Of a stretch of 64,000 nucleotides of DNA, positions 4,524-17,279 are shown piece by piece. The notes under the pieces were generated by a model. That model did not search any database, had not been told where the DNA came from, and saw only the letters and a list, made by a program, of their open reading frames with translations. Source of the stretch: Modestobacter versicolor (GTDB lineage Bacteria; Actinomycetota; Actinomycetes; Mycobacteriales; Geodermatophilaceae); contig NZ_JACIBU010000001.1 of assembly GCF_014195485.1 (NCBI RefSeq), forward strand, positions 310,001 to 374,000, given 5' to 3'. The position numbers and the translations under genes are program-made. Each line of letters opens with the position of its first letter. The first letter of the stretch is position 1.

Positions 4524-4596
4524 CCGAGCTCGCGAGGGCACACGGGGGCAGGGCATCGGCGAGCACGGTCCCGACGAGCGCCAGCGAGGAGGGGCT

Positions 4597-5852: not shown

Positions 5853-6635
<783 letters not shown>

Positions 6636-13988: not shown

Positions 13989-14189
13989 GGGCGAGCAGCT
14001 GGCCGACGGTCACGGTGTGCGCTCCGGCGGGGTGATCGAGCCTCCGGGTCGGCCTCCTCGCACACCGTCGCCGGGCGGAGCTGAGGGCCGAGCAGAAAAG
14101 ATCTCGGCGGCGGGAACCCTGGCCGGCGGTTGAGCGTTCACCCAGAGACGAACCGGGGCCGCTGGGCGATGCCGCCTGCTCGGAGCCGG

Positions 14190-14300
14190 TTCGACGTGGA
14201 GGGGAGTACCCCGCCCACAGCACCGTCGTCAACACGAGGTCCCACGACCTCCGGCGCTGCTGGCCGACAACGTCCGTCGGTGGGGGAGACCTCCGGTACT
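14190..14300 (+). ncRNA. Mn2+ riboswitch (yybP-ykoY class)
   Basis: The terC leader holds the class hallmarks in order: GGAGGGGAGTA (14198-14208), CGTCAACAC (14227-14235) followed by a 6-bp hairpin (14236-14251), and GGGGGAGACCTCC (14282-14294). The first helix pairs GGAGG (14198-14202) with CCTCC (14290-14294). This class binds Mn2+ and is widely found upstream of TerC-family and other Mn exporters, usually as an on switch. See the expression platform entry. Confidence 0.88.
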
Positions 14301-14323
14301 GACACACGTCTGTCTACCGGAGG
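14290..14323 (+). promoter_or_regulatory. ribosome-site-sequestering hairpin of the Mn2+ riboswitch
   Basis: CCTCCGGTA (14290-14298) pairs perfectly over 9 bp with TACCGGAGG (14315-14323), which holds the terC Shine-Dalgarno site (GGAGG, 8 nt before the ATG). The same CCTCC is also the 3' strand of the riboswitch's first helix, so the two pairings exclude each other. Mn2+ binding should free the ribosome site. Confidence 0.75.
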
Positions 14324-14331
14324 CACCCTGT

Positions 14332-15507
14332 ATGGACGTCCCGTTCTGGATCTGGGCGATCACGATCGCCGCGATCGTCGGCATGCTCGTCTTCGACTTC
14401 GTCGGCCACGTGCGCACCCCGCACGCCCCCTCGCTGAAGGAGGCCGCGACCTGGTCGGCGGTCTACGTCGGCATCGCCGTGCTGTTCGGTCTCGGCGTCT
14501 TCTGGTTCGGCGGGGCCACCCCGGGCGGTGAGTACTTCGCCGGCTACATCACCGAGAAGAGCCTCTCGGTCGACAACCTCTTCGTCTTCGTGCTGATCAT
14601 GGCCAGCTTCGGCGTCCCCCGGATCGCCCAGCAGAAGGTGCTGCTCTTCGGCATCACCTTCGCGCTGGTGCTCCGCACGATCTTCATCCTCATCGGCGCG
14701 GCGGCGATCGAGAACTACAGCTGGGTGTTCTGGATCTTCGGCGGCATCCTGATCTACACCGCCGTCGTCCAGGCCCGCAGTGGTGGCCACAACGGTGACG
14801 AGGAGTTCAAGGAGAACGCCGTCCTCCGGCTGGTGCGCCGGGTCGTGCCGACCACCGAGGAGCACCACGGCGACAAGATGACGGTGAAGCTGCAGGGCAA
14901 GCGGTACATCACGCCCCTGGCCATCGCGCTCATCGCCATCGGCAGCGCCGACATCATCTTCGCCGTCGACTCGATCCCGGCGATCTTCGGTCTGACCCAG
15001 GACACCTACCTGGTGTTCGCCGCCAACGCCTTCTCCCTGCTGGGCTTGCGGCAGCTGTTCTTCCTCATCGACGGCCTGCTCGACCGGCTGGTCTACCTGG
15101 CCTACGGGCTCGCGGTGATCCTCACCTTCATCGGCGCCAAGCTGGTCATCCACGCCATGCACACCAACGAGCTGTCCTGGATCAACGGCGGCGAGCACAT
15201 CACCGTGATCCCGGAGATCCCGACCTGGCTCTCGCTGGCGGTCATCCTGGTGACCCTGCTGGTGACGACGGTGACCAGCCTCCGGCACGACCGGAAGGTG
15301 CGCGAGCGCCGTCAGGCCCGGGACGCCGCCGCCGGCACCGCGACCCCGGCCACCGGCACGGCGACCCCCACCACCGGCATCGAGGGCACGGATACCCGGA
15401 CCGCCACCGACGACCGCACCAGCCACGACGCCGACGGCACCGACGACGTCGACCGGATCAGCGACGACCCGGACGCCGAGCGCGTCGGCCCGGCGGCCGG
15501 GCGATGA
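14332..15507 (+). CDS. TerC-family membrane protein, probable Mn2+ exporter
   Basis: A 391-residue integral membrane protein of the TerC/Alx family with about nine helices to residue 315. The tail to 391 is hydrophilic and Thr/Asp-rich. Family-conserved acidic membrane motifs are seen: VFDFVGHVRTPH, SLSVDNLFVFVLIMASF, SADIIFAVDSIPAIFGLTQD and the GLRQLFFLIDGLLDRL stretch. Relatives export Mn2+ or load it into secreted enzymes. The riboswitch upstream supports Mn2+ as substrate. The next gene (MarR-like) starts within its stop codon (ATGA). Confidence 0.9.
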   Translation: MDVPFWIWAITIAAIVGMLVFDFVGHVRTPHAPSLKEAATWSAVYVGIAVLFGLGVFWFGGATPGGEYFAGYITEKSLSVDNLFVFVLIMASFGVPRIAQQKVLLFGITFALVLRTIFILIGAAAIENYSWVFWIFGGILIYTAVVQARSGGHNGDEEFKENAVLRLVRRVVPTTEEHHGDKMTVKLQGKRYITPLAIALIAIGSADIIFAVDSIPAIFGLTQDTYLVFAANAFSLLGLRQLFFLIDGLLDRLVYLAYGLAVILTFIGAKLVIHAMHTNELSWINGGEHITVIPEIPTWLSLAVILVTLLVTTVTSLRHDRKVRERRQARDAAAGTATPATGTATPTTGIEGTDTRTATDDRTSHDADGTDDVDRISDDPDAERVGPAAGR

Positions 15508-16076
15508 CCACCGCCCCGTCCGTCGTGGACCGGTGCCTCGACCGCGTCGACGTCGGCGAGCTGCTCCGGGCCCCGGCCCAGCCGGTCGACGGGCTGGCCG
15601 ACGTGCTCGGCCTGCTCGACGACCTCTCCGCGCTCGGCCGGGTCGTCGACGGCGTGGCCCGCCGGCTGGACGTGGTCTCCGGGCTGCGGTCCGGCGAGCT
15701 GCAGGCGCTGGCCGCGGTCGCCGAGGGTGCGGTGCACCCCCGCGCCGTCGCCCGGCGCACCGGCCAGGTCGACGAGGCAGGTGCGGCGACGGTCGAGTCG
15801 CTGGTGCAGCGCGGGCTGCTCGGCCGGCACCGCCACCCGGCGTCCCCGGCCACCGAGGCCTCGCTGGTCCACCTGACCGAGGCGGGCCGGGTCGTCCTCG
15901 CCCAGGTGCAGGGCCTGCAGATCAGGGCGCTGGCCGCCGTGGTGCAGCAGCTCGGCGATGCCGGGGCGGCCAGCCTGCGCAGCACGGTGTCGGCGCTCGG
16001 GACGGCGCTCGCGGCGGACCGGCCGGTCGTCGGGGTTCCCGCAGCGCAGCGGACGGTGCAGCCGCTCGGTACCTGA
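15504..16076 (+). CDS. MarR-like winged-helix regulator
   Basis: A 190-residue predicted cytoplasmic DNA-binding protein. Residues about 65-130 read as a winged helix (GELQALAAVAEGAVHPRAVARRTGQVDEAGAATVESLVQRGLL followed by a wing and HLTEAGRVVL). Flanking N- and C-terminal helices would dimerise. It starts inside the terC stop (4-nt overlap), so it is translated with TerC and may control one or both terC genes. The match to MarR is by pattern only; the ligand is unknown. Confidence 0.65.
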   Translation: MTTAPSVVDRCLDRVDVGELLRAPAQPVDGLADVLGLLDDLSALGRVVDGVARRLDVVSGLRSGELQALAAVAEGAVHPRAVARRTGQVDEAGAATVESLVQRGLLGRHRHPASPATEASLVHLTEAGRVVLAQVQGLQIRALAAVVQQLGDAGAASLRSTVSALGTALAADRPVVGVPAAQRTVQPLGT

Positions 16077-16084
16077 CCAGGTCA

Positions 16085-16117
16085 CCGGCGGGGGAGGCGG
16101 TGTGCGTCCCCCGCCGG
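16085..16117 (+). terminator. terminator after the MarR-like gene
   Basis: A perfect 11-bp stem (16085-16095 with 16107-16117) with an 11-nt loop begins 9 nt after the stop codon. Confidence 0.7.
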
Positions 16118-16188
16118 GGTCCGGGCCGGCCGAGCGGGGCCGCAGCCGGCCGCGGAGAAGTTGGCCGGTGCACCTCACAGCCGCCCCG

Positions 16189-16194
16189 TAGAGT
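16189..16194 (+). promoter_or_regulatory. -10 box for the second terC gene
   Basis: TAGAGT lies 8 nt before the GTG start at 16203, with no Shine-Dalgarno site between, which suggests a leaderless transcript. Confidence 0.45.
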
Positions 16195-16202
16195 TCGCGC
16201 TC

Positions 16203-17279
16203 GTGGAGCTCCCCGTCTGGTTCGAGATCGCGACGTTCGTGGGGCTCACCGTCCTGCTCCTCGCAGACCTCGCCCTCGTCGTCCGCCGCCCGCACGAGCC
16301 CTCCGTGAAGGAGGCGAGCATCTGGGTCACGTTCTACGTGGTGCTGGCCCTGCTCTTCGGCGTGGTCGTCCTGGCGGTGACCAACGGGCAGTTCGCCACC
16401 GAGTTCTACGCCGGGTGGCTGACCGAGTACTCGCTCTCGGTCGACAACCTCTTCGTCTTCGTGATCATCATGGCCCGCTTCCAGGTGCCCAGGAAGCTGC
16501 AGCAAGAGGTCCTGATGGTCGGGATCATCATCGCCCTGGTCCTCCGCGGGATCTTCATCCTGCTCGGCGCCGAGCTGATCGAGCGCTTCACCTGGGTCTT
16601 CTACATCTTCGGCGCCTTCCTCGTGTACACCGCGATCAACCTCGTCCGGCACCGCGACGAGGACGAGGACTACGAGGAGAACGCCTTCATCCGGCGGATG
16701 CGCAAGGTCCTGCCGATGACCCCGGACTTCCACGAGAGCAAGATCCGCGTCGTCCAGAACGGCAAGAAGCTGTGGACGCCGATGATCGTGGTGTTCCTGG
16801 CGCTGGGCACGACCGACCTGCTCTTCGCGCTGGACAGCATCCCGGCGATCTTCGGGCTCACCCGCGAGCCGTTCATCGTCTTCACCGCGAACATCTTCGC
16901 GCTGATGGGCCTGCGCCAGCTGTACTTCCTGCTCGGCGGCCTGCTCAAGCGGCTCGTCTACCTGTCGATCGGCCTGGCCGTCATCCTCGCGTTCATCGGC
17001 GTGAAGCTGATCATGGAGGCGCTGCACACCAACGAGCTGCCGTTCATCAACGGCGGTGAGCACATCGAGGCGGTGCCGGAGATCCCGATCTGGCTGTCGC
17101 TGTCGATCATCCTCGGCGTCCTGCTGGTGGCGACCGTGGCGAGCCTGCTCAAGACGCGTGGCGAGACGACCGAGGACGCCCCGGCCGAGGTCGCCGAGGG
17201 CGAGTCCCCGGTGGGCACCGAGACCACCGGCCGGCCCGCTCCGGCGCCGGAGACCGCCGAGGAGCCCCGGCACACCTGA
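16203..17279 (+). CDS. second TerC-family membrane protein
   Basis: A 358-residue paralogue of the first TerC protein, with the same helix order and signature motifs (VKEASIWVTFYV, SLSVDNLFVFVIIMARF, TTDLLFALDSIPAIFGLTRE, GLRQLYFLLGGLLKRL). The C-terminal tail is acidic, Pro/Glu-rich and different. GTG 16203 is chosen because the first membrane segment follows at once and a -10 box sits 8 nt upstream; the open frame upstream adds only 14 unlikely residues. No riboswitch precedes it, so it is probably regulated differently from its twin. Confidence 0.85.
   Translation: MELPVWFEIATFVGLTVLLLADLALVVRRPHEPSVKEASIWVTFYVVLALLFGVVVLAVTNGQFATEFYAGWLTEYSLSVDNLFVFVIIMARFQVPRKLQQEVLMVGIIIALVLRGIFILLGAELIERFTWVFYIFGAFLVYTAINLVRHRDEDEDYEENAFIRRMRKVLPMTPDFHESKIRVVQNGKKLWTPMIVVFLALGTTDLLFALDSIPAIFGLTREPFIVFTANIFALMGLRQLYFLLGGLLKRLVYLSIGLAVILAFIGVKLIMEALHTNELPFINGGEHIEAVPEIPIWLSLSIILGVLLVATVASLLKTRGETTEDAPAEVAEGESPVGTETTGRPAPAPETAEEPRHT

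Follow-up and report, generated by a model that had tools for sequence, protein, structure and literature searches.

The leader of a terC gene in a 64,000-nucleotide (nt) stretch of the Modestobacter versicolor genome (assembly GCF_014195485.1, contig NZ_JACIBU010000001.1, positions 310,001 to 374,000; this whole stretch is called the window here and positions are counted from its first letter) is very probably a Mn2+-sensing riboswitch of the yybP-ykoY family, which would act as a translational ON switch. We assign positions 14198-14294 to an aptamer of this class and 14290-14323 to its expression platform, on the basis of sequence comparison. The original prediction had proposed a Mn2+ riboswitch with a ribosome-site switch ahead of terC, and this interpretation is supported by three lines of evidence: 1) the leader is matched by a covariance model built without sequences from its own family; 2) changes on both sides of a pair (two-sided changes) occur in 26 of the 31 aptamer pairs among relatives; and 3) an arm able to cover the ribosome site is kept in 121 of 146 relatives. 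The leader makes a clear sequence-level case for a translational Mn2+ switch in Gram-positives of high G+C content, with strand co-change across the phylum as evidence. It is an ordinary class member, and what may interest specialists is the gap in Rfam, the strand co-change and the sorting of L3 types by gene rather than the switch itself.

Direct reading of the letters places GGAGG at 14198-14202, CCTCC at 14290-14294, CCTCCGGTA at 14290-14298 and its exact reverse complement TACCGGAGG at 14315-14323, with the terC ATG at 14332, 8 nt past the second GGAGG. These strands agree to the base with the original prediction, which had also claimed the class hallmarks; both are readable, L1 as GGAGUA (14203-14208) opposite GAGA (14286-14289) and L3 as GUC followed by GUCAACAC (14225-14235) and partnered with CGG (14252-14254). 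The parts of the leader and the gene it precedes are as follows.

14198-14202, forward strand: 5' strand of P1.1, GGAGG, identical to the terC ribosome site; 97.2% of cells paired across 101 relatives, with two-sided changes in 3 of 5 P1.1 pairs.
14203-14208, forward strand: 5' side of L1, GGAGUA, invariant in 30 of 30 family sequences.
14209-14212, forward strand: 5' strand of P1.2, CCCC, which is TCCC, TTCC, CTCC or GCCC in relatives and covaries with 14282-14285.
14213-14217, forward strand: junction linker of 5 nt at the P2 position, too short for a hairpin.
14218-14227, forward strand: 5' strand of P3.1, pairing with 14253-14262; two-sided changes in 7 of 9 pairs.
14228-14235, forward strand: L3, GUCAACAC; A14231, invariant in 30 of 30 family sequences, is placed by alignment at the Mn2+-contacting adenosine (A41 of Lactococcus lactis, UCA type).
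14236-14251, forward strand: P3.2 hairpin, 14236-14241 with 14246-14251; two-sided changes in 6 of 6 pairs.
14253-14262, forward strand: 3' strand of P3.1, its first GG being part of the conserved CGG edge of L3 (14252-14254).
14263-14281, forward strand: P4 hairpin; two-sided changes in 7 of 7 pairs in relatives, loop variable.
14282-14289, forward strand: 3' strand of P1.2, GGGG (14282-14285), and 3' side of L1, GAGA (14286-14289).
14290-14298, forward strand: putative switch strand, of which 14290-14294 would close P1.1 (ON) or, together with 14295-14298, cover the ribosome site (OFF).
14315-14323, forward strand: ribosome-site arm, TACCGGAGG, with the Shine-Dalgarno GGAGG at 14319-14323.
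14332-15507, forward strand: terC, an Alx/TerC-family membrane protein of 391 residues (Pfam PF03741, E 1.2e-46).

A BLAST search of 112 family genomes with the leader gave matches at E <=0.001 in 99, its own included, some of these matches being short, and the thirty best family matches were aligned. Scored against a structure that we had named ourselves, these 30 sequences pair in 99.1% of cells and have two-sided changes in 10 of 31 pairs (0 of 500 shuffles as high), P1.1 being invariant among them; from the same thirty, RNAalifold predicted a three-way junction with P1.1, P1.2, P3.1, P3.2 and P4 when no structure was imposed. We built a covariance model, R1, from the thirty aligned family sequences, window included, and ran it on 100 loci, which yielded the 101 aligned matches of alignment A3. 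In these aptamers 96.3% of cells pair versus 74.2% after shuffling, and the two-sided changes in 26 of 31 pairs were equalled in 0 of 500 shuffles. The first pair of P1.2 is UA in 69, CG in 21 and GC in 3 of them and the second is CG in 53 and UA in 45; the helix is found as TCCC/GGGA, TTCC/GGAA, CTCC/GGAG and CCCC/GGGG, the last being the form in the window. Alignments A3 and A7 were fitted to the model structure and lean towards it, and A1 and A2 were not. On these comparative grounds the relatives show the aptamer to fold as P1.1-L1-P1.2-P3.1-L3-P3.2-P4 without P2. A second model, R2, was made from 95 Actinomycetota sequences, none of them from the window's family. It has one match at E <=10 in the 64-kb window, namely 14198-14294 (84 bits, E 4.3e-18), and it also finds the leader of Escherichia coli alx (locus L278, 4377-4499; 51.4 bits, E 4e-10), which had not been chosen with R1 and which R1 itself finds with 36.6 bits (E 1.1e-5); a single model therefore recovers both the window and a reported member of the class. 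At E <=0.01, R1 has matches in 219 of the 394 genomes sampled from the class and in 46 of the 296 sampled from the phylum, the two samples overlapping in part. These counts are lower bounds, because the R1 search of the window's own genome omitted a second riboswitch that R1 and R2 both find when its locus is searched directly. Separately, a very similar leader (L132, 97.9 bits) comes from a genome assigned to a different family of the phylum (G662), possibly through assembly contamination.

In the crystal structures of the class (PMC6754395), L1 has G8, G9 and A10, and L3 has an invariable adenosine, in UCA41AUUC of L. lactis and ACA48UACU of Xanthomonas oryzae. Alignment to these suggests that A14205 corresponds to the A-minor A10 and A14231 to the metal-contacting base, with L3 of the L. 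lactis type. Hence the window has, between P1.1 and P1.2, a purine loop with a candidate A-minor adenosine and, between P3.1 and P3.2, an L3 with the invariable adenosine, the latter judged at the level of sequence. Junctions in the class are either four-way, with P2, or three-way as in alx, and the window has the three-way form: the linker at the P2 position measures 5 nt in it, and all 101 rows of alignment A3 have one of 4-7 nt. Among the matches listed from a pattern scan, the gap from GGGGAGTA to GTCGTCA does not exceed 18 nt at 61 of the 64 loci from Actinomycetota and at 11 of the 16 from elsewhere. Given these gaps, the alx leader without P2 and the three-way junction of the Streptococcus mgtA riboswitch, the absence of P2 is, by comparison of sequences, a common form. 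We rejected P2 loss as a new actinobacterial trait, since 11 of the 16 listed matches outside Actinomycetota have gaps of 14-17 nt and alx is also without P2. An actinobacterial Mn2+ riboswitch found via Rfam (L062, 1488-1599, reverse strand) has an ACA-type L3 and a long, hairpin-like insertion resembling P2, and its downstream open reading frame (ORF) is without a Pfam match. An aptamer with the yybP-ykoY fold might sense another divalent ion, or pH together with Mn2+: variants of changed specificity have been suggested for the class (PMC7266159), an alx reporter also responds to alkaline pH (PMC9603457), and the Streptococcus mgtA aptamer binds Ca2+ (PMC9495176). For the terC leader we hold this to be decidedly unlikely, as its L3 retains the Mn2+-contacting adenosine and belongs to the UCA type seen in L. 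lactis, and as the genes downstream of such leaders come mostly from families tied to Mn2+ export.

In the reading as a translational Mn2+ switch, the 3' strand of P1.1 (14290-14294) is shared with the expression platform, the original prediction having claimed that CCTCC pairs either with GGAGG at 14198-14202 or, within a perfect 9-bp hairpin, with that at 14319-14323. We evaluated this exchange in 146 leaders, a count that excludes the low-scoring L157 1013-1102 and L151 2101-2124 as well as L132, whose contig ends in the leader. The arm was sought within 3-18 nt of the start codon and the best complementarity was chosen, a procedure that raises the paired fraction; start codons of the relatives were chosen by script and not curated, and two-sided arm changes were compared with shuffles of the same arms. 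An arm complementary to the sensor 3' strand lies 3-15 nt before the start codon in 121 of 146 leaders; two-sided changes in the arms number 111, whereas 500 shuffles give a mean of 47.3 and a maximum of 65. The three strands (sensor 5' strand, sensor 3' strand, arm) occur as GGAGG/CCTCC/GGAGG in 75 leaders, GAAGG/CCTTC/GAAGG in five and CAAGG/CCTTG/CAAGG in five, and in 86 of the 121 the sensor 5' strand is identical to the ribosome-site arm. A leader's own sensor 3' strand can form a helix of 7 or more strict pairs with its own downstream part in 110 of 146, versus a mean of 3.7 (maximum 9 in 100) when the downstream part is shuffled; with arms swapped between leaders the mean is 63.9 of 146 (maximum 71 in 200), a high figure because 106 of the 146 share CCTCC. 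The site shows an exact matching change in 13 of 27 leaders with CCTTC or CCTTG, as GAAGG in 8 of 19 CCTTC and CAAGG in 5 of 8 CCTTG leaders. The comparison thus shows, at the level of alternative partners, that 14290-14294 can pair with 14198-14202 or with the ribosome site in a mutually exclusive manner. The conservation and covariation of the arms, on which the original prediction had staked itself, therefore came out well for the keeping of the arm and its two-sided changes, and co-change of the strands proved to be partial.

The same aptamer could instead control terC mainly through early transcription termination, by Rho or an intrinsic terminator, with the covering of the ribosome site as trigger or side effect. 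In one actinobacterium of low G+C content (L152, 1501-1620) the alternative hairpin, GGTAAAGG, runs into TTTTTTATTTT, with TTTTTT, and is terminator-like instead of covering a ribosome site; the mntP riboswitch of E. coli works in concert with Rho (PMC11647493), and where a GC-rich leader has its ribosome site blocked, Rho sites could become exposed. The hairpin of the window runs into CACCCTGTATG, which has no U-run, and we rejected an intrinsic terminator there for this reason; moreover, the arm stands 3-15 nt before the start codon in the 121 leaders that have it, as expected of ribosome-site control. We therefore regard termination as the unlikely option and translational control as the preferred one.

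Several findings weigh against the reading as a translational Mn2+ riboswitch of the yybP-ykoY class. 1) The Rfam model of the class, RF00080 (Rfam 15), has no match in the window at the gathering cut-off, nor at E <=10 in 14100-14400, and yet it gives the mntP leader of E. coli 41.6 bits, slightly short of the cut-off of 45 (E up to 1). 2) The mntP leader, which has P2 and another L3 type, is reported by neither R1 nor R2. 3) The R2 sequences were collected with R1, which includes the window, so that R2 is not fully independent of it. 4) By the criterion used, the arm is missing in 25 of 146 leaders, among them six GDT1 leaders and L152; where the switch strand is other than CCTCC (40 leaders), a leader's own arm makes at least 7 strict pairs in 15, CCTCC-type arms reaching 7 pairs in a fraction of 0.16 of these same leaders; moreover, 5 of 19 CCTTC leaders have a GGAGG-type complement, and none of five CTTTC leaders holds its own arm of at least 7 nt. 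5) The nearest-neighbour folding model puts the complete leader of the window in the OFF state (hairpin probability 0.97), with ON 13 kcal/mol higher, and over complete leaders the mean P1.1 probability is 0.00, exceeding 0.5 in 0 of 140. 6) The literature passages contain no Mn2+-binding or expression test of any actinobacterial member.

As for the first of these points, the E. coli regions with alx and mntP are themselves without an RF00080 match at the gathering cut-off, and the alx leader is not found by it at E up to 1, both leaders having been reported as Mn2+ riboswitches of the yybP-ykoY family (PMC9603457). With RF00080, two of 14 named control genomes pass the cut-off, those of E. 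coli, Bacillus subtilis and Caulobacter vibrioides reach E <=0.01, and nine match at E up to 10, including Corynebacterium glutamicum and L. lactis. Of 19 loci that bear the core pattern in various phyla, RF00080 matches 0 at the gathering cut-off; in genomes of the class 0 of 394 pass and 10 of 394 reach E 0.01. RF00080 detects leaders of the mntP-like form more readily than those of the alx-like form. Since it misses alx, stays below its cut-off on mntP and matches none of the 19 core-pattern loci, its silence on an alx-like leader is unusable as a negative test. A missing match should not be read as absence of the element (0 of 394 against 219 of 394 for R1 in the class), and we rejected placing the leader outside the yybP-ykoY class for want of one, as RF00080 fails on the reported E. 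coli members too. The covariance-model search suggested along with the original prediction is accordingly negative with the Rfam family (no match at E <=10) and positive with the family-free R2 (84 bits). The terC RNA motif, a separate Rfam family, has no match in 14100-14400 at E up to 10, the three matches there being to other families at chance level. The lack of an RF00080 match, together with literature passages holding no experiment on an actinobacterial member, could also be accommodated if the leader were a conserved attenuator, or a site bound by a protein, that has no ligand itself. We deem this very improbable, because the metal-site loops are conserved while the helices covary and because the alx leader of E. 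coli is found by a model made from actinobacterial sequences.

With respect to the fifth point, the folding model takes no account of tertiary contacts made by L1 and L3. In it the 3' strand of P1.1 favours the downstream partner in 140 of 140 folded leaders, with a probability above 0.5 in 134. For a transcript of the window ending at 14300, ON is 0.4 kcal/mol above the best fold and the P1.1 probability is 0.33, and when leaders are cut 3 nt past P1.1 this probability exceeds 0.5 in 91 of 146. We rejected an equilibrium switch, which the modelled energies oppose (OFF about 13 kcal/mol more stable); a simple switch of this kind is unlikely on the modelling, and switching is probably kinetic and would need timing during transcription. 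As OFF is far more stable in the model, mutual exclusion alone gives no switching: the original prediction had argued from two states that exclude each other to a switch, and the exclusive pairing is borne out by comparison, the sufficiency of exclusion is not. We propose that the aptamer would be complete with about 20 nt still to be transcribed ahead of the ribosome-site arm, at which stage Mn2+ bound between L1 and L3 would stabilize P1.1, as reported for the X. oryzae riboswitch (PMC6754395), and hold CCTCC. The terC GGAGG would then be free and TerC, as Mn2+ exporter or metalation factor, would be made, and when Mn2+ is lacking the 9-bp hairpin would form and block translation. We infer the Mn2+ response and its direction from homology, E. 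coli mntP and alx being turned up by Mn2+ (PMC9603457).

Alx, annotated as a Mn2+ exporter, is a TerC homolog (PMC13274385), and therefore the closest relative on record precedes a gene of the same family. The E. coli alx leader further resembles the window in L1 (GGGGAGTA..GTGAGACC), in a UCA-type L3, and in P1.2 followed by a short linker without P2. It differs in being poorer in G and C, in a longer P4 and in the distance to the gene, with the aptamer ending at 4499 of L278 and alx starting at 4581, whereas in the window 24 nt separate the P1.1 strand from the ribosome-site GGAGG. The yoaB riboswitch of L. lactis and the yebN riboswitch of X. oryzae share with the window the P1.1-L1-P1.2 and P3.1-L3-P3.2 legs and the Mn2+-contacting adenosine, but have P2 and a four-way junction, and the X. 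oryzae riboswitch is transcriptional (PMC6754395). A three-way junction is also described for the Streptococcus mgtA Mn2+ riboswitch, which, unlike the window's leader, acts on transcription of a Mn2+/Ca2+ ATPase transporter gene (PMC9495176). The C. glutamicum terC gene (cg2157) is likewise actinobacterial and has a yybP-ykoY leader predicted by Rfam (49.13 bits in the 2013 Rfam) with an observed transcript; unlike the window's leader, it is tabulated there among Rfam predictions, in a passage that gives no switch mechanism (PMC3890552).

The genes downstream are consistent with a role in Mn2+ homeostasis, being TerC in the window and mostly TerC, GDT1 and P-type ATPases in relatives. We scanned with Pfam the terC of the window and 114 of 144 downstream ORFs, leaving out those of the 30-member family set save the window's. 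One set of 99 downstream ORFs includes 89 TerC, two P-type ATPases and one GDT1; the 16 further ORFs comprise seven GDT1, three TerC, three P-type ATPases, one Na/Ca exchanger and one SAICAR synthetase. Mn2+ efflux or detoxification is ascribed to TerC, UPF0016 (the older name of GDT1, according to a reference title) and P-type ATPases (PMC13274385), and TerC proteins have also been described as metalation factors (PMC10550928). The second riboswitch in the same genome (G000:C1:2903811-2903904; L001 1503-1596; 56 bits with R1, 69.3 bits with R2) precedes a GDT1 gene and has an ACA-type L3. Over the 146 leaders, 123 of the 133 with a UCA-type L3 precede TerC and nine of the 11 with an ACA type precede GDT1, UCA before GDT1 and ACA before TerC each occurring 0 times; ten UCA and two ACA leaders precede neither, and no type could be assigned to two, one of which precedes TerC. 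Most ACA leaders came via the Rfam search, and their number is not a frequency. This sorting could mean two sensors of different affinity or selectivity in one cell, the genome of the window having one of each. We offer only tentatively, as something that may well fall short, the broader generalization that compact Mn2+ riboswitches, few of them annotated and almost all lacking P2, are numerous in Actinomycetota, that their sensor 5' strand copies the ribosome site, so that CCTCC chooses kinetically between two near-identical partners, and that the L3 subtypes are sorted by gene.

Some relatives have two riboswitches close together, for instance in G023 (L033, 1501-1603 and 2792-2885). In the window a second terC (16161-17276, forward strand) is the second gene downstream of the first, and we rejected a second riboswitch copy before it, R1 with its filters off giving at most 7.6 bits in 15900-16260; Rfam has no match in 15400-16300. 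The ORF between the two terC genes (15504-16073, forward strand) has a borderline match to a helix-turn-helix domain (HTH_67, 27.3 bits, cut-off 27). Farther away, the window contains a cyclic di-AMP (ydaO/yuaA) riboswitch at 6465-6624 on the reverse strand (50.5 bits), which precedes a transglycosylase-LysM gene (5856-6479, reverse strand) that is presumably Rpf-like.
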